A program made the position numbers and the translations under genes. A stretch of DNA of 64,000 nt from Oscillospiraceae bacterium (GTDB lineage: Bacteria; Bacillota; Clostridia; Oscillospirales; Ruminococcaceae): assembly GCA_017848055.1 (NCBI GenBank), contig JAGALZ010000046.1, positions 1 to 64,000 of the forward strand, given 5' to 3'. Shown here piece by piece: positions 51,302 through 61,286 of this stretch (position 1 is the stretch's first letter; each line of letters opens with the position of its first letter). The notes beneath the pieces are model-generated. The model was not told the origin of the DNA, searched no databases, and worked only from the letters and a program-made list of their open reading frames with translations.

Positions 51302-51402
51302 AAACTTTATAAGTATGCGTAAATATTAAACGCCATTTTACATAAGCATATTGTATCACATATTTGAAAGAAATTCAACCGTCCGATGAAAGGACTGAAA
51401 AA

Positions 51403-52392
51403 GTGAAATCATCATTGAAAGCATTTGCCGTTATAGCGGTACTTCTTGTTCTCCTTGTTGCAGCGGCAGTAGCATATAGATTAAAAAGACCGCAGTTTGA
51501 AACACAAAGCTTTATCGCAATGGATACTCCCGTGACGATAAAGGTGCTGGACTGTGATGCCGATAAGATTCGTGATATTGTCGAAGAACTCGATGATGCT
51601 CTCGATGCATATTCGTCCGATAGCGAGCTTTACTCCATAAACCGTAGCGGAGAGGGAAAAAGCGAGATTGCTTCAGATGTTCTTCTTAAGCTTGAGAAAA
51701 TCACTGCAAAGCATACTCTTCCAACAGCAGGACGAGTAATCGAGCTTTGGGCAATAACATCCGATAATGCAAAAGTGCCAAGCGATTCAGAGCTTTTGTC
51801 AGCTCTTCAAACGGTGAAAGCGGACAATCTTTCTTTGAATGATAACATTATTACTCTGAAAAACGGCAGTTATCTGAATTTCGGCTATTGTGCAAAGGGC
51901 TATGCCTGCGATGAAATAAAAGAGTATCTTGAATCGAATGACGTAAAATGTGCAGTCGTGTCGCTTGGCTCTTCTTCGCTTTTGTTCGGAGAAAAGCCCG
52001 ACGGAAAACCATTCAAGACAGCTGTCACAAATCCTTTTTCGCCATCTCAGAATATGCTCTATGTGCAAACAGATGCCTGCGCAATTTCGACTTCCGGCGG
52101 TTATGAAAGATATTCGGATATTGACGGAAAACGCTATGGACATATCTTTGACCTTGAAACGGGTTATCCTGCCGAAACTGACTTAGCATCAGTAACAGTT
52201 ATTTGTCAAAGCGCAATTGCGTCTGATGTGCTTGCGACAGAAATCTATATCGGCGGAACCGAAGAGCTGTCAGCACATCTTGCAAGTGAAGAGTACCAGA
52301 TAATCGCCGTAGATATGAATAAGAATGTCTATGTTTCGCAATCATTGAAAGACAGCGTAACAATTACAGATTCGCAATTTAAACTTAAGTAA
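51403..52392 (+). CDS. apbE: FAD:protein FMN transferase
   Basis: 329 residues from GTG 51403, which has AAAGGA 9 bases upstream; no in-frame ATG exists near the start. A membrane/signal helix (about 6-26) then the ApbE domain: FIAMDTPVTIKV, LDAYSSDSELYSINRSG, LNFGYCAKGYACDEI, ISTSGGYERYSDIDGKRYGHIFDLETGYPA. ApbE attaches FMN to Thr of extracytoplasmic flavoproteins; its position directly before rnfC points to RnfG and RnfD as substrates. Confidence 0.94.
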   Translation: MKSSLKAFAVIAVLLVLLVAAAVAYRLKRPQFETQSFIAMDTPVTIKVLDCDADKIRDIVEELDDALDAYSSDSELYSINRSGEGKSEIASDVLLKLEKITAKHTLPTAGRVIELWAITSDNAKVPSDSELLSALQTVKADNLSLNDNIITLKNGSYLNFGYCAKGYACDEIKEYLESNDVKCAVVSLGSSSLLFGEKPDGKPFKTAVTNPFSPSQNMLYVQTDACAISTSGGYERYSDIDGKRYGHIFDLETGYPAETDLASVTVICQSAIASDVLATEIYIGGTEELSAHLASEEYQIIAVDMNKNVYVSQSLKDSVTITDSQFKLK

Positions 52393-52419
52393 CAAACCGT
52401 AAGAAACGGAGGAATATAT

Positions 52420-53706
52420 ATGCCATTTTGGGGAATAAAGCTAGACCACCACAAAACAACAGCTGATTCGCAAACTGTGCCGATTCCATTGCCAAAGACA
52501 GTAAAGATTCTTATGTCACAGCATATGGGTGCACCATGCGACCTGCTTGTGAATGTCGGTGATGAGGTTAAGGTAGGACAGAAGATAGGCGACAGCGCCG
52601 CATTTATGTCTACTCCTATACATTCCTCGGTTTCAGGAACCGTTAAAACCGTAGAAGACTATCTTCTCGCAAGCGGAAAGGTGTGTAAGGCAGTCGTTAT
52701 AGAAACGGACGGAAACCAGACTGTCTGCGAAACCGTGCAGCCACCGCAAGTCAGTGACCTTGCCTCGTTTGTGAAGGCAGTAAAGGAAAGCGGCTGCTGC
52801 GGACTCGGCGGAGCAGGTTTTCCTACACATATAAAGCTTAATGTCGATATAAAGGATAAGCCTATCGATTCTCTTGTAATAAATGCCGCAGAATGCGAGC
52901 CATACATAACAAGTGACTGCCGTGAGCTTATCGAGCGTCCCGATGACGTAATCGACGGAGTAGAGAAGGTTATGAAGTATCTCGAAATCGAGAATGCCTA
53001 TATCTGTATCGAAAAGAATAAGCCCCAGGCAATAAAAATAATGAAGCAGAAAACCGCCGATAAGAAAAATATCACCGTGGTTTCGCTCCGTTCGTCATAC
53101 CCGCAGGGTGCCGAAAAGGTCGTAGCATATTCTGCAACAGGCAGAATAATCGGGGAAGGTGAGCTGCCATCAGCCAAGGGAATTATAGTTCTTAATGTTT
53201 CTACAGCAGGATTTATTTCAAGATATCTGAAAACCGGAATGCCGCTTGTTGAAAAGCGACTTACCCTCGACGGTGACGCATTCAGAACACCATGCAATGT
53301 TATGGTGCCGGTAGGAACAGCAGTAAGTGAGCTTGTGACGTTTGCAGACGGTGCCCAGAGCGGTATCGCAAAGCTTCTCGCAGGTGGCCCTATGATGGGT
53401 ATGTGTCTGTATGATTTCTCAGCTCCGATTACTAAAACAAATAACGCAATTTTAGCGTTTACCGAAAAGCTTGCAAAGAATAAAGAACCAAAAACCGCTT
53501 GTATCCATTGCGGAAGATGTGTAGCAGCCTGTCCTATGAAGCTTATGCCGACAGAGCTTGAAAAAGCGTATGAGGCAAAGGATGCAGATATGCTCAGAAA
53601 GTTAAAGCTCAATCTTTGTATGAACTGTGGAAGCTGTACTTATGTTTGCCCCGCAAAGCATAATCTGGCAGAAGTAAACCAGCTTGCAAAAGCACTTATC
53701 AGATAG
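52420..53706 (+). CDS. rnfC: Rnf complex subunit C
   Basis: 428 residues. Peripheral Fe-S/flavin subunit that exchanges electrons with NAD. Seen: a biotinyl-lipoyl-like region (NVGDEVKVGQKIGD, STPIHSSVSGTVK), the Gly-rich nucleotide site SGCCGLGGAGFPTHIK, ECEPYITSD, and two [4Fe-4S] sets in CIHCGRCVAACP and CMNCGSCTYVCP. GGAGG 8 bases before ATG. First of six rnf genes; a C-D-G-E-A-B order is usual in Clostridia. Confidence 0.96.
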   Translation: MPFWGIKLDHHKTTADSQTVPIPLPKTVKILMSQHMGAPCDLLVNVGDEVKVGQKIGDSAAFMSTPIHSSVSGTVKTVEDYLLASGKVCKAVVIETDGNQTVCETVQPPQVSDLASFVKAVKESGCCGLGGAGFPTHIKLNVDIKDKPIDSLVINAAECEPYITSDCRELIERPDDVIDGVEKVMKYLEIENAYICIEKNKPQAIKIMKQKTADKKNITVVSLRSSYPQGAEKVVAYSATGRIIGEGELPSAKGIIVLNVSTAGFISRYLKTGMPLVEKRLTLDGDAFRTPCNVMVPVGTAVSELVTFADGAQSGIAKLLAGGPMMGMCLYDFSAPITKTNNAILAFTEKLAKNKEPKTACIHCGRCVAACPMKLMPTELEKAYEAKDADMLRKLKLNLCMNCGSCTYVCPAKHNLAEVNQLAKALIR

Positions 53707-53723
53707 GAAAGGAGTAGTGCATC

Positions 53724-54653
53724 ATGGATAAAATGATTGTATCCCCATCGCCGCACGTTCGAAGTGGTACAACAACCGCAAAGCTTATGGGACATGTCCT
53801 TCTGGCACTTTTCCCTGCGATAGTTGCCGCAACAATAATCTTCGGCGGCAGAGCGCTTATGCTCGTAGGCTTTTGTACAGCAATAGCAGTTGTGCTTGAA
53901 AGAATATGCGGAATAATTATGAAGCGTCCCGATACAACCGGCGACCTTTCAGCCGCAGTAACAGGTGTTATCTTTGCACTCAACCTTCCGCCGACGCTTC
54001 CTTTCTGGGTTGCTTTTATCGGTCTGTTTTTTGCAATTGTCGTAACAAAACAGCTTTTCGGCGGTCTCGGACATAACTTTGCAAACCCCGCAATCGTCGG
54101 TAGAATTGTTATAACACTGTCTTTCCCGGCAGCAATGACAACATGGACAGAGCCGTTTACGGCAGACGTAACTACTCTTGCAACCCCGCTTGCATCAAAG
54201 TCTGCAAATATGCTCGATATGTTTTTGGGTATGACAAGCGGCTGTATAGGTGAAACATGTTCTGTCGCACTTATCTTCGGATTTGTCTATCTGTGTGTAA
54301 TGAAGATAATAACCCCGACAACACCGATTGCGTTTGTCGGAACAGTTGCACTGTTTTCCTTTATCGCAGGCGAAGACCCACTCTACCAGGTGCTTTCTGG
54401 CGGACTTTTACTCGGTGCAATATTTATGGCAACCGACTATGTAACAACTCCGGTAACTCAACTCGGTAAGTTTATTTTCGGTATCGGCTGCGGTATAATT
54501 ACCTGCGTTATCAGATTCTACGGCTCATACCCCGAGGGCGTTTCCTTCTCGATACTGCTTATGAATATCGTTTCACCATATATTGATATGCTTTGCAAAA
54601 CAAGACCTGTAGGAGCAAAGAAGCCTTCAAAGAAAGTAAAGGAGGCGAACTGA
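53724..54653 (+). CDS. rnfD: Rnf complex subunit D
   Basis: 309 residues with about nine membrane helices. Begins MIVSPSPHVRSGTTTAKLM. The FMN-bearing loop is probably around MATDYVTTPVTQLGK, which aligns with the Rnf/Nqr flavinylation region. Conserved: GGLGHNFANPAIVGRI and GEDPLYQVLSGGLLLGA. Starts 17 bases after rnfC. Moves ions with the other membrane subunits. Confidence 0.95.
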   Translation: MDKMIVSPSPHVRSGTTTAKLMGHVLLALFPAIVAATIIFGGRALMLVGFCTAIAVVLERICGIIMKRPDTTGDLSAAVTGVIFALNLPPTLPFWVAFIGLFFAIVVTKQLFGGLGHNFANPAIVGRIVITLSFPAAMTTWTEPFTADVTTLATPLASKSANMLDMFLGMTSGCIGETCSVALIFGFVYLCVMKIITPTTPIAFVGTVALFSFIAGEDPLYQVLSGGLLLGAIFMATDYVTTPVTQLGKFIFGIGCGIITCVIRFYGSYPEGVSFSILLMNIVSPYIDMLCKTRPVGAKKPSKKVKEAN

Positions 54654-54654
54654 T

Positions 54655-55200
54655 ATGAAAGCTAAAATTCTTCCGTCAGTTGTCCTCTGCCTTATATGTG
54701 CAATCGTCTGCGGCCTGCTTGTCGGAGCATACGAGCTTACGTACGTCGATAATACAGGCGTTATGACCGACGAGCTTATAAAGGGCTGTAATAGTATCAA
54801 TAAGGATTCAGAGTATGAAATTCTCAAGGATGAAAACGGAAACGTCGTTGAGCTTGAAGGAATAGTCGCAACAATGGTTCCTACCTCGGACAGTAAAACC
54901 GTAATCTTCGAGATTAAAGAGAAAGGCTACAGTAAGGACGGTATCCACATACTTGTCGGAGTAAATGAAGACCTCACAGTTGCAGGAATTTACTATATTT
55001 CCTGCGGCGAAACAGCCGGTGTCGGCACAAAAACTCAGGACGACGATTACCTGGCAAAATATGACGGAGTAAATTCCGATGGAATTGATGACATCGATAA
55101 TATTACCGGCGCTACATATTCTTCTAAGGGATTCAAGAGAGCCGTAAAGCGTGCTATCAGTGCCTACGAGCAGAACAAGGAGGCGATTTTCAGTGAGTGA
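54655..55200 (+). CDS. rnfG: Rnf complex subunit G
   Basis: 181 residues: an N-terminal membrane helix (about 5-28) and an extracytoplasmic FMN-binding domain. The flavinylation motif ITGATYSSKG is present; T154 is the expected FMN-linked Thr. CGETAGVGTKTQDDDYLAKY is family-typical. Starts 1 base after the rnfD stop. Natural substrate of ApbE. Confidence 0.95.
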   Translation: MKAKILPSVVLCLICAIVCGLLVGAYELTYVDNTGVMTDELIKGCNSINKDSEYEILKDENGNVVELEGIVATMVPTSDSKTVIFEIKEKGYSKDGIHILVGVNEDLTVAGIYYISCGETAGVGTKTQDDDYLAKYDGVNSDGIDDIDNITGATYSSKGFKRAVKRAISAYEQNKEAIFSE

Positions 55201-55888
55201 TAAGGCAAAGAAAGGCTCTCTCTATGAGCTTACAAAAGGAATAATCAAGGAAAATCCCGTTCTTGTCGGACTTCTCGGAATGTGTCCTACACTCGCAGTT
55301 ACCAATCAGGCAATCAACGGACTCGGAATGGGAATCGCAACTACATTTGTTCTCGTCTGTTCGAATATCGTTATCTCGCTTCTCAAGAAGGTTATACCTT
55401 CAACAGTTAGACTTCCAAGCTTTATCGTAATTATCGCAGGCTTCGTAACTCTCATCGAGTTTCTTATGAAGGGGTACCTGCCCGCAATTTATTCGGCACT
55501 CGGAATATTCCTTCCACTCATTACTGTAAACTGTATAATTTTAGGCAGAGCAGAAGCATTTGCATCTAAGAACTCCGTCTTAGCTTCCGCACTCGACGGC
55601 CTTGGAATGGGCATAGGCTTCACACTTGCACTTTTTGTAATGGCAAGTATCCGTGAAGTGCTGGGTTCAGGAACATTTATGGGACTGAAGATTCCCGTGC
55701 TCTGCGATAACTCAATGCTTATGTTTATAATGCCGGCAGGCGGATTCTTTGTGCTTGGTGTTATAATCGCCGTAGTAAACAAGATTGCAAATAAAAAGCC
55801 ACCGCAGACTCTCGGCTGTGCAGGCTGTCCTCATGCAGCAACCTGCCAAAACATGGGTGCCTGCGAAGGCGAAGAAAAAGCAGAATAG
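55193..55888 (+). CDS. rnfE: Rnf complex subunit E
   Basis: 231 residues from GTG 55193 (AAGGAGG 9 bases upstream), overlapping the rnfG stop by 8 bases. Six membrane helices: ENPVLVGLLGMCPTLAVTN, LGMGIATTFVLVCSNI, PAIYSALGIFLPLITVNCIILGRAEAFAS, LDGLGMGIGFTLALF. The Cys-rich end (CAGCPHAATCQNMGAC) is unusual for RnfE and could bind a metal. Confidence 0.95.
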   Translation: MSDKAKKGSLYELTKGIIKENPVLVGLLGMCPTLAVTNQAINGLGMGIATTFVLVCSNIVISLLKKVIPSTVRLPSFIVIIAGFVTLIEFLMKGYLPAIYSALGIFLPLITVNCIILGRAEAFASKNSVLASALDGLGMGIGFTLALFVMASIREVLGSGTFMGLKIPVLCDNSMLMFIMPAGGFFVLGVIIAVVNKIANKKPPQTLGCAGCPHAATCQNMGACEGEEKAE

Positions 55889-55900
55889 GGGGCATGAAAT

Positions 55901-56473
55901 ATGGAATATATTCTGATACTCGTCGGAACTGTCCTTGTGAACAATATCGTGCTCTCGCAGTTTATGGGAATATGTGCATTCCTCGGAGTTTCAAAGCAGA
56001 TGAAAAACTCACTCGGAATGGGTGCAGCAGTAATTTTTGTAATGGTCTGCGCAACACTTTGTACATATCCGATTTATATCCTGCTCGATAAGTTTGAAAT
56101 CACGTATCTCAAGACAGTCGCATTCATTCTTGTTATCGCACTTTTCGTGCAGATGGTGGAAATGATACTCAAAAAGGTTATGCCGCCGCTTTATAAAGCA
56201 CTCGGTATCTACCTTCCGCTTATTACAACCAACTGCGCAGTTCTTGGCGTTACAATCACAAACGTTGATGAAAGCTACAATCTCGCACAGTCGGTTATCA
56301 ACGCTCTCGGCACAGGACTTGGCTTCACACTTGCACTCTTGCTGTTTTCGGGAGTCCGTTCCAAAATCGACGACTCAAAAATTCCCGAAACCTTCAGAGG
56401 TGTCCCTGCAACACTTATCGCCGCATCAATTGTTTCCTTAAGCTTTATGGGCTTTTCGGGACTTATCGGCTAG
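55901..56473 (+). CDS. rnfA: Rnf complex subunit A
   Basis: 190 residues with six membrane helices, related to RnfE. Seen: NNIVLSQFMGICAFLGVSKQ, PLYKALGIYLPLITTNCAVLGV and INALGTGLGFTLALLLFSGVRSK. GGGG/GGCAT precedes the start, 12 bases after rnfE. RnfA and RnfE share an Fe centre in the membrane in known structures. Confidence 0.95.
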   Translation: MEYILILVGTVLVNNIVLSQFMGICAFLGVSKQMKNSLGMGAAVIFVMVCATLCTYPIYILLDKFEITYLKTVAFILVIALFVQMVEMILKKVMPPLYKALGIYLPLITTNCAVLGVTITNVDESYNLAQSVINALGTGLGFTLALLLFSGVRSKIDDSKIPETFRGVPATLIAASIVSLSFMGFSGLIG

Positions 56474-56491
56474 AAGAGGAGGCAATAAATT

Positions 56492-57286
56492 ATGGAATAC
56501 ATTATACCGATTCTGATATTTGCCGCCCTTGGTGTAGCCGCAGGTGTCCTGCTTACAATAGTGTCTAAAGTCTTTGCAGTAAAGACAGATGAAAGACTTG
56601 AGGCTCTCCAGAATGCACTTCCACAGATTAACTGCGGCTCGTGCGGATACTCGGGCTGTAACGGATATGCAGAAGCCGTGCTCGAGGGCAGGGCAGAACC
56701 AAACCTCTGTAAGCCGGGCGGAAATGAATCCGCAGGTAAGATTGCTGAAATCTTAGGTATTACAGTAGGCGAGGTCGAACAGCAAACCGCCTTCGTCCGC
56801 TGTTCGGGAAACTGCAACGTTACAACTCATAAGTATACCTACGACGGAACGCTCAGTTGCCGCTCTTCCAATAACTATTACAACGGAAGCAAGGTCTGCA
56901 CAAGCGGATGCCTCGGTTATGGCGACTGCGTAGCAGTCTGCCCTAATAACGCAATCAGCATAAAGGATGGTGTCGCCGTAGTAGATGCACGTATCTGTAC
57001 CGGATGCGGACTCTGTGCTAAGGCTTGTCCTAACGCACTTATTACAATCAGAAGCCGCAAGCAGATTTATGAGGTATGCTGCCGCTCAACTGCAATAGGC
57101 AAGGTTACAAGAAGCGTCTGCAAAACGGGCTGCATCGGCTGTAAGCTCTGTGAAAAGAAGTGTCCGACAGGCGCAATCACCGTAACCGATAACTTTGCAA
57201 AGATTGACTATTCAAAGTGTATAAACTGCGGAGCATGTGCAGAAGCCTGCAAGGTCGGCGCAATCAAAAACATACTCTGCTCATAA
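56492..57286 (+). CDS. rnfB: Rnf complex subunit B
   Basis: 264 residues. Membrane helix (about 3-25), the four-Cys cluster region (INCGSCGYSGCNGYAEAV, PNLCKPGG), then several ferredoxin sets (CLGYGDCVAVCP, CTGCGLCAKACP, CIGCKLCEKKCP, CINCGACAEAC). Takes electrons from reduced ferredoxin. Last rnf gene; the operon ends in a terminator shared with the convergent dockerin gene. Confidence 0.96.
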   Translation: MEYIIPILIFAALGVAAGVLLTIVSKVFAVKTDERLEALQNALPQINCGSCGYSGCNGYAEAVLEGRAEPNLCKPGGNESAGKIAEILGITVGEVEQQTAFVRCSGNCNVTTHKYTYDGTLSCRSSNNYYNGSKVCTSGCLGYGDCVAVCPNNAISIKDGVAVVDARICTGCGLCAKACPNALITIRSRKQIYEVCCRSTAIGKVTRSVCKTGCIGCKLCEKKCPTGAITVTDNFAKIDYSKCINCGACAEACKVGAIKNILCS

Positions 57287-57336: not shown

Positions 57337-59148
57337 TTATACAAATTTGTCCAGCGTTCCTGCATTGTATTGCAGAATCATAAGTGCGTCAACTACGTCA
57401 GCGCAGCCGTCTCCGTTTACGTCAGCCGCCATAAGCTGAACAGGGGTGAGCTCTGCGTTTCCTGCCGTGTATTGCATTATCAGAAGCGTGTCAATTGTGT
57501 CAATAAAGCCGTCATCATTGACATCGCCATAGGTGTAATGCATCGTGTCGCCCTCACGTTCGATTACGAGCGTGTAATCTCTTGTCGCTCCCGACGGAGC
57601 GGTTACCGTAATTGTAAAGGTGTTGCTTCCCGTCTTAAGCTCAACTGCACCGGTGCCGGTCATAAGCGAGCCGGGAATATCCTTGGTCGCATTGATTACA
57701 ACAGAGCGAACGTTCGCGGGGACAGTTACCTTGTAGCTGAGAGTGTATCTGTTGAAAGAAGGTGACACATCATAGCCGTTTACTCCGATTGAAGAAAGGA
57801 AGTTGTTGTTTGTTCCTGTCGAGGTAGGCTTTTCGCAAGCGGTTTCAGGCATATTATCATAAATCGGAATTGTGAAAACCAGCGCCGACGAAAGAATTTT
57901 TTCGTTGTAAGCCTTCTTCATGTGCGAAGCTTCCGAAGCCGCCGCCTGAATGTTTGTCATATACTGATGGCTGAAGTAGCCGTTGCCACCGTCAACCATA
58001 TCAAATTTCTGTAAGTAAAGTGTGTCCTGACCACGGTTTATGTAGCTCTTACCGATAAAGGTCGAACCGCCGATGATGGATTTACGCTGATTTGTCCAGG
58101 GCAGACAGTAGTTTGCATTCTTGGTCGAAGCGTACTTTGCACCCATCTGCTGTGCAGTCATTGTCGAAGTAGCATATGCCTGGATGTTGAAGAAATTGAA
58201 GTAACCTTCGTATCCGGGTACTGTTCCGTGACCGAGAGGGGAGCCGTTCACACCCATTTCCTGCCTTGCTCTTGAAGCCAGGTGATAGGGGCTGACACCC
58301 GTTTCTTTTGCCGCATCTATAAATGTCTGAGCGTAGCTGTAGGTTTCATTTGTGTCAGGAGTTGTGAAGCTGTCACCCATAAATGTTCCCGAAAGAATAG
58401 CCTGCACACCTTCAAGCGTGTGAACACTCTCATCGTAAGAAAGCTGTTCAAACATAAATATCGAGGTGTCATCAAGGAAATTTCTCGGGTCCATATAGTA
58501 AGCAACCAGCTGCTCAGATGCCGCAACCCAGCTCGCACCATCAAGTCCGTACCAGCTGTTTGTGTTCCAGTTGTAAGCACCTTTCTCCATTGACTTCCAA
58601 GAAGCAATCGAGTTTTTGGATACCAGGCTTGTTCCAACCTGCGATTCAGCTTTCAGAGCTTCGTTCCAGTCGATGTCAAGCTCCTGAGCCTTGAACACCC
58701 AGTTCGGATGAAGAGCGTGAATCTCTCTGAGCGAATCCTTGTAGCTTTCAGGGAAGCCCTGGTCGTCAAGGTACTGTTCAAAGTCCATGTCCTCAGTGTA
58801 TGTAGGCTTCTGAACTTCCGGTTCGGTAATCTCAGTGACTTCAACGTAGGATGAAGAAATAAATCCCGTCGTACCGCCATAGCTTATCTTGTACCATATC
58901 TTGCCGTCAGGAGCAGTAGCCTCGCCGAGAATTGTAACCTGACTGCCATCGTAAAGATAACCAAGCGTAGAGTAGGTTGTACCAGCACCGCTTCTTACCC
59001 TTAGAGAGGAGGCGTTGACAGTACCGATAGATATAGAAACAGCAGATACCTCATTATTCTGAGCAACAAAACCGGCGCCATATGTAAAACACATAACGGC
59101 GCTTGCGGCTAATGCAGTTATTTTCATAAGTTTCTTAGAAAAAAGCAT
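57337..59148 (-). CDS. secreted glucosaminidase with SH3 and type I dockerin domains
   Basis: 603 residues. Signal peptide (1-36, cut after NNEVSA). SH3b domain (about 37-105: NASSLRVRSGAGTTYSTLGYL). Glucosaminidase/LytB-like domain (about 130-400) with catalytic-type Glu in SRARQEMGVNGSPLG and FNFFNIQAYA. Cadherin-like beta-sandwich (about 440-530: FLSSIGVNGYDVSP, TPSGATRDYTL-type end TAPSGATRDYTLVIE). C-terminal dockerin (about 538-600) with two Ca-binding repeats, GDVNDDGFIDTIDTLLIMQY and ADVNGDGCADVVDALMILQY. It should bind a cohesin at the surface and cut peptidoglycan. Divergent from a cohesin-bearing gene. Confidence 0.92.
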   Translation of the reverse strand: MLFSKKLMKITALAASAVMCFTYGAGFVAQNNEVSAVSISIGTVNASSLRVRSGAGTTYSTLGYLYDGSQVTILGEATAPDGKIWYKISYGGTTGFISSSYVEVTEITEPEVQKPTYTEDMDFEQYLDDQGFPESYKDSLREIHALHPNWVFKAQELDIDWNEALKAESQVGTSLVSKNSIASWKSMEKGAYNWNTNSWYGLDGASWVAASEQLVAYYMDPRNFLDDTSIFMFEQLSYDESVHTLEGVQAILSGTFMGDSFTTPDTNETYSYAQTFIDAAKETGVSPYHLASRARQEMGVNGSPLGHGTVPGYEGYFNFFNIQAYATSTMTAQQMGAKYASTKNANYCLPWTNQRKSIIGGSTFIGKSYINRGQDTLYLQKFDMVDGGNGYFSHQYMTNIQAAASEASHMKKAYNEKILSSALVFTIPIYDNMPETACEKPTSTGTNNNFLSSIGVNGYDVSPSFNRYTLSYKVTVPANVRSVVINATKDIPGSLMTGTGAVELKTGSNTFTITVTAPSGATRDYTLVIEREGDTMHYTYGDVNDDGFIDTIDTLLIMQYTAGNAELTPVQLMAADVNGDGCADVVDALMILQYNAGTLDKFV

Positions 59149-59222
59149 TTCGTTGTCCTCTTTGATATCTGCGGTTTTGTAACACTTTTGTAACGTATAA
59201 TCGGCATAATACCTTAGTTTAT

Positions 59223-59252
59223 ATTATACTAGCATAAAAATGAAATTGTCAA
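59223..59252 (-). promoter_or_regulatory. promoter for the dockerin gene
   Basis: Minus strand TTGACA (59247-59252) and TATAAT (59223-59228), 18-base spacer. Confidence 0.75.
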
Positions 59253-59464
59253 GTGGGAAACATCGGAAAATCGCCGCTTTTTCAGTTAACGAAAAGTTTA
59301 CATTTGCTCTGTTTATGAAAATGTAAACGTTATTTTGTGGTGAGGTTATAAAATGCATCTATATGTTGTACTCTAAGTGTAAAAACAGCCGTTTTTCGGG
59401 CGTTTTAGAGGCTCTTTTAGCGAGTTTGTAGAAAAAAAGCCCGTATTTTATAGCAAAATGTCTA

Positions 59465-59494
59465 TTGACATCTAAAAAAGTAATATGTTATACT
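59465..59494 (+). promoter_or_regulatory. promoter for the cohesin gene
   Basis: TTGACA (59465-59470) and TATACT (59489-59494), 18-base spacer; leader of about 110 bases. The divergent gap 59149-59612 holds this, the dockerin-gene promoter and no gene. Confidence 0.75.
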
Positions 59495-59612
59495 ATTTCT
59501 ACAAAACGATTTTTATATAATAGAGAGAAATATATAACGAAATATACAGAAGCAGAAGGTTTCAACATGGCGCGGGCTTTTTTCGTGCTGTGACAGAAAT
59601 AAGGAGGCAAAA

Positions 59613-61286
59613 ATGAATATTGGATTTAAGAAGGCTGTTATCTCAATCGGAACAGCCGTTGTAATGCTGACCTCAGTATTTGCAGGCTCAGTAGTCGCTT
59701 CATCAACTAACGAAATTACAGTTAAACCGACAACCTCTACCGTTAAGCCGGGAGAGAGCTTTGACGTGTCTGTCGGATATGAAGCAGGTAGCAACGGTGC
59801 ATCGGGATTTCAGCTGTTTTTGCGTTATGACGATGACCTGCTCGACCTCTATGTACCAACAACCGCAGAGCTTAATGGAAAGTACAATGTCGGAAGCAGA
59901 TTTTCTGTAATTACAAACTATACATTCGGTGAGGGAACTGTTAAGATTGTAGGTGCAAATATGAGTGCCAACAACATAACGGTTGATACATTGCTCTCAC
60001 TTCTCACATTTACAGCTGAGGATGACGCAGCAGGTACTGCAAAGATTTGGATTGAAGTTGAAAAGCTTGTCGAGAATAAGGACGGCAGCATGGTAAGCAC
60101 ACCGTATTCTGCACCAACTGCTTCCAACCCTATCAAGATTAAGATAGCTGCTCCGACAACAACTACAACCACTACAACAACCACTACTACAACAACTACA
60201 ACAACTACTACAACTACAACAACCACTACAACCACTACAACACCTACCACCACAACTCCTACTACTACACAATCTACAACAACTCCAAGTACAACAACAC
60301 CTACTACAACATCATCTACAACACCTACCACTACTACAACTACAACATCAGCAACTACTACACCTACTACTACAACAACTACAACATCAGCAACTACTAC
60401 ACCTACCACTACTACAACTACAACACCAGCAACAACCACACCAACAACTACTACAACTACAACACCTGCGACTACAACACCAACGACCACAACAACTACA
60501 ACTTCGCAGACAACAACTACTACTCCGATTACAACAACTGAGGCTTCTGTAACTGAGCCTTCCGCTTCAGAAACTACAACCTCAGAAACAGCTCCTTCCG
60601 AAACTACTACTACGACTACAACAACTTCATCACAGACTGAAGAAACTCCTTCCGAGCCATCCGAAGATGCCGTGATTATTGTTGATGATAATCCGCTTTA
60701 TGAAGTTTCCCAGGGCGCTGAAGAGTATGACGAAACAAAGGTTGACCCATATTGCTTCGACCTCAAGGACTATGTTTCTGATTTTGACAAGAGCTATAAC
60801 GTAAAGGTTTCAATTTCATCTGACGGCTACGCAAGCGGTTCAATCAGTATGAATGACGTTGACGGTAACTGGACAAAGTATTATCAGAACACAGATACCC
60901 AGGTTTGGGAAGCTGAAAACATCACACTTGATAAGAACGACGCACTTGTATTCGTTCAGCTTTTCTACCTCAAGGAAAACTCAACCTTTACTATCGAGCA
61001 GATTGAAATCACACCGTATAACGCCCAGAGCAATGACCAGCCTGCAGAAGACGACGTAAACGATACAAACGTCGAGATTCCAAAGGAGGACGCAGAGGAA
61101 GGCGTTACAGAGGATGATATCCAGAACGCAGTTGACCAGATGCCTGAGAACGACAATAACCCACAGACATCTGATTCTTCAAGAAGTGTAATGGCAGTAG
61201 GCCTCGTCCTTTTAGAGGTTGCCGCAATGGCAGCAGTTCTCTTCGTTTTCGGAAAGAAAAAGGATATCGAAGAGCCCCAGGAATAA
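59613..61286 (+). CDS. sortase-anchored single-cohesin surface protein (scaffoldin-like)
   Basis: 557 residues; AAGGAGG 6 bases before ATG. Order: signal peptide (1-30); cohesin (33-180; EITVKPTTSTVKPGESFDVSV, GASGFQLFLRYDDDLLDLY, LLSLLTFTAEDDAAGTAKI); Thr/Pro linker (181-350); a C-terminal beta domain (351-480; YCFDLKDYVSDFDKSYNVKVSIS, WEAENITLDKNDALVFVQLFYL) perhaps a carbohydrate-binding module; then a wall-sorting signal NPQTS (516-520), hydrophobic helix and KKKD tail. NPQTS is of the sortase B/NPQTN type. It should hold dockerin proteins on the cell wall. Only one cohesin, no dockerin. Confidence 0.9.
   Translation: MNIGFKKAVISIGTAVVMLTSVFAGSVVASSTNEITVKPTTSTVKPGESFDVSVGYEAGSNGASGFQLFLRYDDDLLDLYVPTTAELNGKYNVGSRFSVITNYTFGEGTVKIVGANMSANNITVDTLLSLLTFTAEDDAAGTAKIWIEVEKLVENKDGSMVSTPYSAPTASNPIKIKIAAPTTTTTTTTTTTTTTTTTTTTTTTTTTTTTPTTTTPTTTQSTTTPSTTTPTTTSSTTPTTTTTTTSATTTPTTTTTTTSATTTPTTTTTTTPATTTPTTTTTTTPATTTPTTTTTTTSQTTTTTPITTTEASVTEPSASETTTSETAPSETTTTTTTTSSQTEETPSEPSEDAVIIVDDNPLYEVSQGAEEYDETKVDPYCFDLKDYVSDFDKSYNVKVSISSDGYASGSISMNDVDGNWTKYYQNTDTQVWEAENITLDKNDALVFVQLFYLKENSTFTIEQIEITPYNAQSNDQPAEDDVNDTNVEIPKEDAEEGVTEDDIQNAVDQMPENDNNPQTSDSSRSVMAVGLVLLEVAAMAAVLFVFGKKKDIEEPQE
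60153..60540 (+). repeat. Thr/Pro-coding tandem repeat (linker)
   Basis: Nearly pure ACA/ACT/ACC codons with about 36-39-base units encoding TTTTTTSATTTP or TTTTTTPATTTP. A likely O-glycosylated spacer; prone to slippage. Confidence 0.9.

Follow-up and report, generated by a model that had tools for sequence, protein, structure and literature searches.

To our knowledge, cohesin-dockerin pairs are known almost entirely from complexes that degrade plant fibre, starch or mucin. The cellulosome of R. champanellensis includes dockerin-bearing lysozymes and cell-wall hydrolases, for which the idea of a "lyticome" exists (PMC6403190). The locus described here likewise encodes a peptidoglycan-active enzyme with a dockerin; however, the R. 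champanellensis dockerin joins a multi-enzyme scaffoldin, whereas here a private cohesin gene adjoins that of the enzyme, and the genomes contain a single dockerin or a few. The anchoring scaffoldin Sca5 of the R. bromii amylosome, which has two cohesins and serves amylases (PMC5814915), resembles our surface protein in carrying cohesin and, at its C terminus, a sortase signal by which dockerin proteins can be held on the cell; ours differs in its single cohesin, its CBM-like domain and its neighbour, a peptidoglycan hydrolase. Clostridium perfringens has non-cellulosomal single cohesins (2jh2, 2vo8), whose fold our cohesin matches at Z ~13; they belong to secreted family 84 and 33 glycoside hydrolases, in contrast to the apparently envelope-fixed protein without an enzyme domain found here.

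The SagB-SpdC pair of S. aureus is a peptidoglycan release complex in which SpdC orients SagB (PMC10581084). Its likeness to our locus lies in the working principle and not in partner homology: an envelope protein would keep a SagB-type glucosaminidase in place and set its orientation, although the contact proposed here is between cohesin and dockerin, and the partner is single-pass or sortase-anchored. Membership of SagB-SpdC was rejected, since the partner here consists of a cohesin, a CBM-like domain and one C-terminal helix and is no CAAX-protease homologue. Within the open-licence literature, our searches yielded no paper describing a cohesin dedicated to an autolysin, which is weak evidence of novelty.

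The divergent gene pair and its domains

The window (the whole stretch of DNA that was analysed, 64,000 nucleotides) comes from a gut bacterium of the Oscillospiraceae. Its relevant features are as follows.

57337..59148, minus strand: dockerin-bearing glucosaminidase gene (603 aa; signal peptide, SH3_3, SagB/AtlE-type glucosaminidase, cadherin-like domain, dockerin)
57367..57531, minus strand: dockerin type I with two calcium-loop repeats, residues 540-594 (PF00404 and motifs)
57553..57798, minus strand: cadherin-like beta-sandwich domain, residues 451-532 (PF12733, E 1.8e-8)
57895..58824, minus strand: glucosaminidase catalytic region (conserved Glu297 at 58258-58260)
58840..59010, minus strand: SH3_3, residues 47-103 (PF08239, E 1.7e-13), candidate direct wall-binding domain
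59223..59252, minus strand: promoter-like site of the glucosaminidase gene (TTGACA-18-TATAAT, 12/12, sigma-70-like)
59465..59494, plus strand: promoter-like site of the cohesin gene (TTGACA-18-TATACT, 11/12, sigma-70-like)
59613..61286, plus strand: surface cohesin protein gene (557 aa; ORF and alignment)
59700..60158, plus strand: cohesin domain, residues 30-182 (PF00963; profile against PDB cohesins; AF2 and fold search)
60159..60659, plus strand: threonine-rich linker (low confidence in AF2)
60660..61046, plus strand: CBM-like jelly-roll domain (kept in the genus; nearest fold 4d3l)
61158..61172, plus strand: NPQTS sortase-type motif (sequence, alignment)
61194..61250, plus strand: C-terminal hydrophobic helix, then KKK and a short acidic tail

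The ORF calls bear out the original prediction of two back-to-back genes on opposite strands with 464 bp between them, and the separate promoters that it claimed correspond to the two sigma-70-like sites in this gap, both kept among relatives. A riboswitch in the intergenic region was rejected, as Rfam gave no match above chance.

The glucosaminidase was also recognized correctly in the original prediction. Its dockerin scores 44.9 bits against PF00404 (cut-off 22.9), with calcium-loop motifs DVNDDGFIDTID and DVNGDGCADVVD, and is of type I. The catalytic domain matches the NCBIfam SagB model NF052642 (E 1.4e-15, 57.3 bits) and the AtlE/bifunctional autolysin entries of the PDB (AtlE structure, E 2.4e-10). 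SagB itself was rejected, the curated cut-off of this exception-type model being 425 bits; by sequence, the enzyme is best described as a relative of SagB and not SagB proper. E297, invariant in the homologue alignment, is the candidate catalytic glutamate from alignment to AtlE and established knowledge of the AtlE family, so that both the homology and the glutamate of a SagB/AtlE-type glucosaminidase are present. The SH3 and cadherin-like domains of the enzyme were absent from the original prediction.

In the surface protein, a signal peptide is followed by one cohesin, the threonine-rich linker, the CBM-like jelly roll, NPQTS and a transmembrane helix. A Pfam search with the whole protein gave no cohesin match, apparently because of the poly-Thr linker; the excised domain matches PF00963 with 33.9 bits (cut-off 24.1, E 4.4e-8). 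Its AF2 model, with pLDDT mostly >90 over the cohesin part, aligns with 6kgd_A at Z 14.3 (rmsd 2.5, 135 residues), solved cohesins occupy the top rows of the fold search, and the jelly-roll fold of a cohesin is thus confirmed at the level of the predicted model, as is the single cohesin claimed for this protein. The CBM-like domain, previously overlooked and so far seen in the window's genus only, gave no Pfam or credible PDB match by sequence; its nearest fold is the CBM of R. flavefaciens Cel9A (4d3l, Z 9.7). A jelly roll in common with a CBM is no proof of carbohydrate binding.

The same protein had been described as NPQTS-anchored. The motif, the hydrophobic helix, KKK and a sortase in the same genome (one, 40 bits) together are what is expected of a sortase-anchored protein of the NPQT type, and NP[QN]T[SD] is kept in the alignment of full-length relatives of the window's genus, in which the cohesin protein is probably linked by the single genome sortase at NPQTS. 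Such an anchor would apply to the window's genus; the cohesin partners of most relatives span the membrane instead, and their cytosolic tails are often acidic. The C-terminal tail of the window protein also ends in acidic residues, which is unusual for a sortase-anchored protein.

Conservation and joint change of the two modules

To analyse the pairing, we took the window and 80 named loci and set truncated ones aside; 60 of the homologues bear a dockerin. A cohesin gene adjoins 56 of them, in tandem in 44 (usually with ~10-20 bp between the genes) and divergently in 12. When genomes were sampled evenly over the class, a cohesin lay within ~2 kb in at least 17 of the 40 that have the glucosaminidase. 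Chance adjacency was rejected, given that the pairing persists across numerous families, in tandem as well as in divergent order; it occurs in many Clostridia without a cellulosome, and the glucosaminidase, usually present in one copy per genome, is broadly conserved, isolates included. The four dockerin-bearing exceptions belong to genomes with 41, 19, 27 and 50 dockerins; in such genomes a shared scaffoldin might receive the dockerin. At the other extreme, Pfam finds just a single dockerin and a single cohesin in 12 of 50 sampled genomes, adjoining each other at the glucosaminidase pair, among them the isolates Clostridium sp. HBUAS56010 and Pseudoflavonifractor sp. An44.

Across 54 pairs, the distances between dockerins follow those between the neighbouring cohesins (partial Spearman 0.69, glucosaminidase distance held fixed), whereas the control domains do not (SH3 0.04, cadherin-like 0.07). 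Among tandem loci alone the partial correlation is 0.19, weak and no better than the controls. The special signal is gone after dropping the divergent clade, for which reason the mirror-tree was rejected as independent proof over many lineages; the value of 0.69 appears to stem mainly from one event, in which both modules changed in that clade. As judged from these comparisons, in the window's clade the dockerin and the cohesin changed together and the rest of the enzyme did not.

Lineages whose enzyme lacks the dockerin differ in their SH3 content: four to five such domains are present in 15 of 16 dockerin-minus homologues, as opposed to a single one in 57 of 60 dockerin-plus homologues. The swap is merely suggestive, because it comprises two independent changes only, and it was rejected as statistical proof. 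The cohesins beside dockerin-minus homologues are mostly strongly diverged, the majority lying on a separate long branch of the tree, and five of eight sampled genomes of this type lack both Pfam dockerins and Pfam cohesins. These lineages nevertheless keep a cohesin-like neighbour, and therefore the cohesin-like domain may also do something else.

Function of the pair and competing explanations

Very probably, the dockerin and the cohesin of this locus are dedicated to each other one to one and serve as a tether for positioning an autolysin. Comparative evidence strongly supports a partnership in which the dockerin would place the peptidoglycan hydrolase at the surface: the pairing originally proposed for the two proteins draws support from adjacency over families, from one-dockerin/one-cohesin genomes and from the joint change of the modules, although its anchor details had to be corrected. 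Both proteins would be secreted, and the cohesin protein would be kept at the cell surface, by sortase and NPQTS in the window's genus and by a transmembrane helix in most relatives. We infer that the single cohesin of this protein physically binds the SagB-like glucosaminidase through its C-terminal dockerin in the calcium-loaded state. Docking and SH3 would then hold and orient the enzyme in the cell's own envelope, where it would trim glycan strands at a chosen place. Placement on the wall by cohesin-dockerin contact "instead of" a direct anchor, as first proposed, is too simple, since the SH3 domain of the enzyme is itself a candidate wall binder.

The genome of the window (96% complete) has two Pfam dockerins, in reply to the genome-wide list suggested with the original prediction, and three Pfam cohesins, each on a different protein. 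The dockerin outside our pair is on a terpenoid-cyclase-toroid-like protein with its own neighbouring cohesin (C36), and none was found on an amylase or cellulase in this genome. That the cohesin serves amylase or cellulase dockerins exclusively, named beforehand as evidence against the pairing, is therefore unlikely here. Cellulosome or amylosome membership was rejected, there being no multi-cohesin scaffoldin and no further dockerin enzymes fitting such a complex. The two further cohesins, C36 and the orphan C55, are a complication for a dedicated pair. With three cohesins for two dockerins, the glucosaminidase might dock on one of these, its adjacency to the 59613 gene reflecting co-regulation only, and C55 does group in the tree with tandem-type cohesins of other lineages. 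We consider this very improbable: C36 has its own dockerin neighbour, the C55 orthologue persists in a genome (G009) without the glucosaminidase pair, the neighbour is the sole Pfam cohesin in about a dozen genomes, and dockerin and neighbouring cohesin changed together in the window's clade. Display of the enzyme outwards, to lyse other bacteria or feed on their peptidoglycan, is also improbable. In its favour, cellulosome producers do have cell-wall hydrolases with dockerins, and the idea of a "lyticome" has been put forward for them (PMC6403190); the CBM-like domain of the surface protein could also help to hold target cells or glycans. However, that domain has so far been seen in the window's genus only, and a housekeeping role is indicated by the usual single copy, by the breadth over families including isolates and by anchoring close to the membrane in most relatives.

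It is less improbable, but still unlikely, that the partner acts as an activator or scaffold through other contacts, as SpdC does for SagB. In that case the dockerin would be an accessory or structural calcium module, and the main link would not run through its binding to the cohesin. In its catalytic domain the enzyme resembles SagB, which its partner SpdC orients (PMC10581084), most partners span the membrane, many with acidic cytosolic tails, and dockerin-minus lineages retain both gene pair and partner. Yet the cohesins retained there are mostly strongly diverged and accompanied by extra SH3 domains, as expected if dockerin-cohesin contact was the tether, and SpdC is a membrane-embedded CAAX-protease homologue, while the partners here appear single-pass.

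In concept, the membrane-spanning receptor of most relatives has more in common with S. aureus SagB-SpdC than with a scaffoldin. Tentatively, and with some doubt, the dedicated tether could be a non-cellulosomal module for wall growth that is widespread in Clostridia: a cohesin receptor that spans the membrane and has an acidic tail in the cytosol would bring in the SagB-like glucosaminidase of the same cell through the dockerin and link wall cutting to signals from the cytoplasm. The form in the window, with its sortase link, would be a local derivative with receptor and dockerin exchanged together. If genomes with a single dockerin and a single cohesin do position an autolysin in this way, cohesin-dockerin contact takes on a housekeeping function in Clostridia that lack cellulosomes, in a natural single-pair system that is easily tested, and a SagB-type glucosaminidase has a positioning device unlike SpdC. 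Lone dockerin and cohesin genes in gut genomes, otherwise mistakable for fibre-degradation remnants, would then be read anew. A second pair of this type, which also speaks for the tether, is present in other species of the window's genus, where a GH25 lysozyme-dockerin gene lies beside a cohesin-TM gene.

Organization of the divergent gene pair

The locus consists of two divergently transcribed genes separated by a gap of 464 bp:

57337-59148, minus strand: glucosaminidase-dockerin gene, 603 aa
59613-61286, plus strand: surface cohesin gene, 557 aa
60660-61046, plus strand: further globular domain of the cohesin protein, a jelly roll by model

The original prediction that a dockerin-bearing glucosaminidase faces a single-cohesin NPQTS protein was borne out by the open reading frames, domains, and folds. 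The 603-aa protein carries a signal peptide (by inspection), an SH3_3 domain (residues 47-103), a SagB/AtlE-type glucosaminidase (residues 205-416, the span in the SagB model), a cadherin-like domain (residues 451-532), and a dockerin (residues 540-594). The 557-aa protein comprises a signal peptide (by inspection), one cohesin, a Thr-rich linker, the further globular domain, NPQTS, and a C-terminal hydrophobic helix. A Pfam search with the whole protein missed the cohesin, apparently because of the Thr-rich linker; the excised domain scored 33.9 bits against a cut-off of 24.1. In the PDB, the profile of this cohesin family matched almost exclusively cohesins, and the AF2 model resembled solved cohesins with Z up to 14.3. 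The globular domain has no Pfam match; its model (pLDDT 87.5) is a jelly roll whose nearest fold is the carbohydrate-binding module of Ruminococcus flavefaciens Cel9A (4d3l, Z 9.7). As anticipated, the gap holds separate promoters, two good sigma-70-like ones, one for each gene and both kept in relatives. An Rnf-type electron-transport operon (about 51364-57286) lies directly upstream of the pair and also adjoins it in two close relatives (L069, L071); none was seen beside the pair in the rabbit-gut species, where contigs are short.

Secretion signals (by inspection), domains, folds, and gene pairing are thus established for the pair. In the mechanism we propose, the cohesin would capture the dockerin in a calcium-dependent manner, the cohesin protein would be fixed to the envelope, and the glucosaminidase would thereby be held where it can cleave the glycan strands of its own cell's wall, with its SH3 domain probably aiding wall placement. 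The suggestion that the hydrolase is held by cohesin-dockerin contact instead of a direct anchor remains likely as to the tether, which is predicted from the conserved pairing, but not simply as to "instead", since an SH3 domain, a candidate direct wall binder, is present.

Conservation of the pair and anchoring of the cohesin protein

Both genes occur together, in divergent orientation, in 9 of 10 genomes of the genus, and the pair is absent from the tenth; outside the genus, in other families, it is in tandem on one strand. Our species scan (one genome per species) covered the best 80 named loci of 519 relatives and is a lower bound; these came from Oscillospiraceae, Ruminococcus-like organisms, and many Lachnospiraceae, and included the isolates Clostridium sp. 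HBUAS56010, Pseudoflavonifractor spp., and Mobilisporobacter senegalensis. The locus counts omit five loci that were truncated or odd. With the window included, 60 enzymes bear the dockerin, and a cohesin gene adjoins 56 of them (44 tandem, 12 divergent). The remaining four belong to genomes with 41, 19, 27, and 50 dockerins, in which a general scaffoldin could serve the dockerin enzymes. Since similarity to the window's protein had guided the choice of the 80 loci, 243 genomes sampled evenly across the class were examined as well; the glucosaminidase is present in 40, with a cohesin within about 2 kb in at least 17. The arrangement reaches far more widely than one would suppose from the window by itself. 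In one family of the class sample (G318 C17, G284 C13, and G233 C60), a cohesin gene flanks the glucosaminidase gene on each side.

NP[QN]T[SD] precedes the C-terminal helix in all eight full-length aligned proteins of the genus, a conservation that speaks for sortase anchoring there; another divergent locus carries LSDTG instead. Across almost all remaining lineages, the neighbouring cohesin protein ends in a transmembrane helix and shows no recognised sorting motif, so that a membrane-held cohesin receptor is the usual form of the system and the sortase form is local. The predicted sortase anchor is thus supported for the window's genus but not as the common form. Many of these helices lead into an acidic cytosolic tail, which can reach several hundred residues and has a recurring end, such as DDFEFLDLDD, that hints at a binding partner in the cytoplasm. 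Very acidic tails, frequently ending in this way, are found at L157:11341-13119, L169:2814-4613, L153:11471-13435, and other loci.

Dockerin and cohesin content of the genomes

A genome-wide list of dockerins, proposed earlier as a check, held only two by Pfam in the window's own genome (1.94 Mb, 96% complete), along with three Pfam cohesins and one sortase. The second dockerin, on a terpenoid-cyclase-toroid-like protein, has its own adjoining cohesin gene, and the third cohesin is an orphan; there is therefore no cellulosome or amylosome in this genome for the glucosaminidase to join. On contig C36 (L078:4847-9434), the toroid-like protein lies beside a cohesin protein with a membrane anchor and a protein predicted to be secreted. 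The orphan, on contig C55 (L079:3555-4445), has a Thr-rich linker, a helix, and an Arg/Ser-rich tail, adjoins a gene resembling a homocitrate/isopropylmalate-synthase-type enzyme, is present in further genomes of the genus, and clusters with cohesins of the tandem type. The single sortase gene, also on C55 (about 68 kb; L094:31-2160), adjoins a gene for a Hydrolase_2 (SleB-like) cell-wall hydrolase with a poly-Thr linker.

Exactly one Pfam dockerin and one Pfam cohesin, at the pair, were found in 12 of 50 genomes searched whole (among the matches listed, both positions were seen for 10 of the 12), many of them MAGs, any single one of which may have a missed second copy. Short of a binding assay, these genomes provide the strongest argument that the two proteins would be intended partners.

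Sixteen intact homologues lack the dockerin, and 15 of these have four or five SH3 domains; a single SH3 domain is present in 57 of the 60 dockerin-bearing homologues. The neighbours of the dockerin-minus enzymes retain a cohesin-like domain, most on a separate long branch; among eight genomes sampled from this group, five have neither Pfam dockerin nor Pfam cohesin. A swap of the dockerin for extra SH3 domains is only suggestive, since the tree contains just two independent changes. Across 54 pairs, with glucosaminidase distance held fixed, dockerin distance tracks cohesin distance (partial Spearman 0.69; controls: SH3 0.04, cadherin-like 0.07); once the 12 divergent loci are removed, only a weak correlation is left, no stronger than the controls. 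The result is best read as a single joint change within the clade of the window, which left dockerin and cohesin both very different and the remainder of the enzyme not. The original interpretation is largely right, with corrections for the SH3 domain and the commoner membrane-held form, and the pair probably represents modules already known, combined one-to-one outside any cellulosome around a peptidoglycan hydrolase.

Known systems and pairs of like layout

The nearest functional parallel is SagB of S. aureus, which is scaffolded and oriented by its membrane partner SpdC (PMC10581084), although SpdC is unrelated to the cohesin protein. The R. champanellensis cellulosome includes dockerin-bearing wall hydrolases, for which a "lyticome" was proposed (PMC6403190), and R. 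bromii Sca5 is a known sortase-anchored cohesin protein (PMC5814915). Among the open-licence papers searched, none was found to describe a cohesin dedicated to an autolysin.

Other species of the genus have a second dedicated pair (L081:1050-4905, L083:2352-6179, G008 C12), in which a GH25 lysozyme with Big2, SH3, and dockerin domains lies beside a gene for a cohesin-Big2 protein ending in a transmembrane helix; this lysozyme pair, built on the same principle, broadens the theme. The dockerin loop residues are DLYD/DLFD in the lysozyme versus DTID/DVVD in the glucosaminidase. A third pair of such layout (L084:265-5285, on G008 C15) places a leucine-rich-repeat dockerin protein beside a cohesin-like/Big2 protein ending in NPTTG and a helix.
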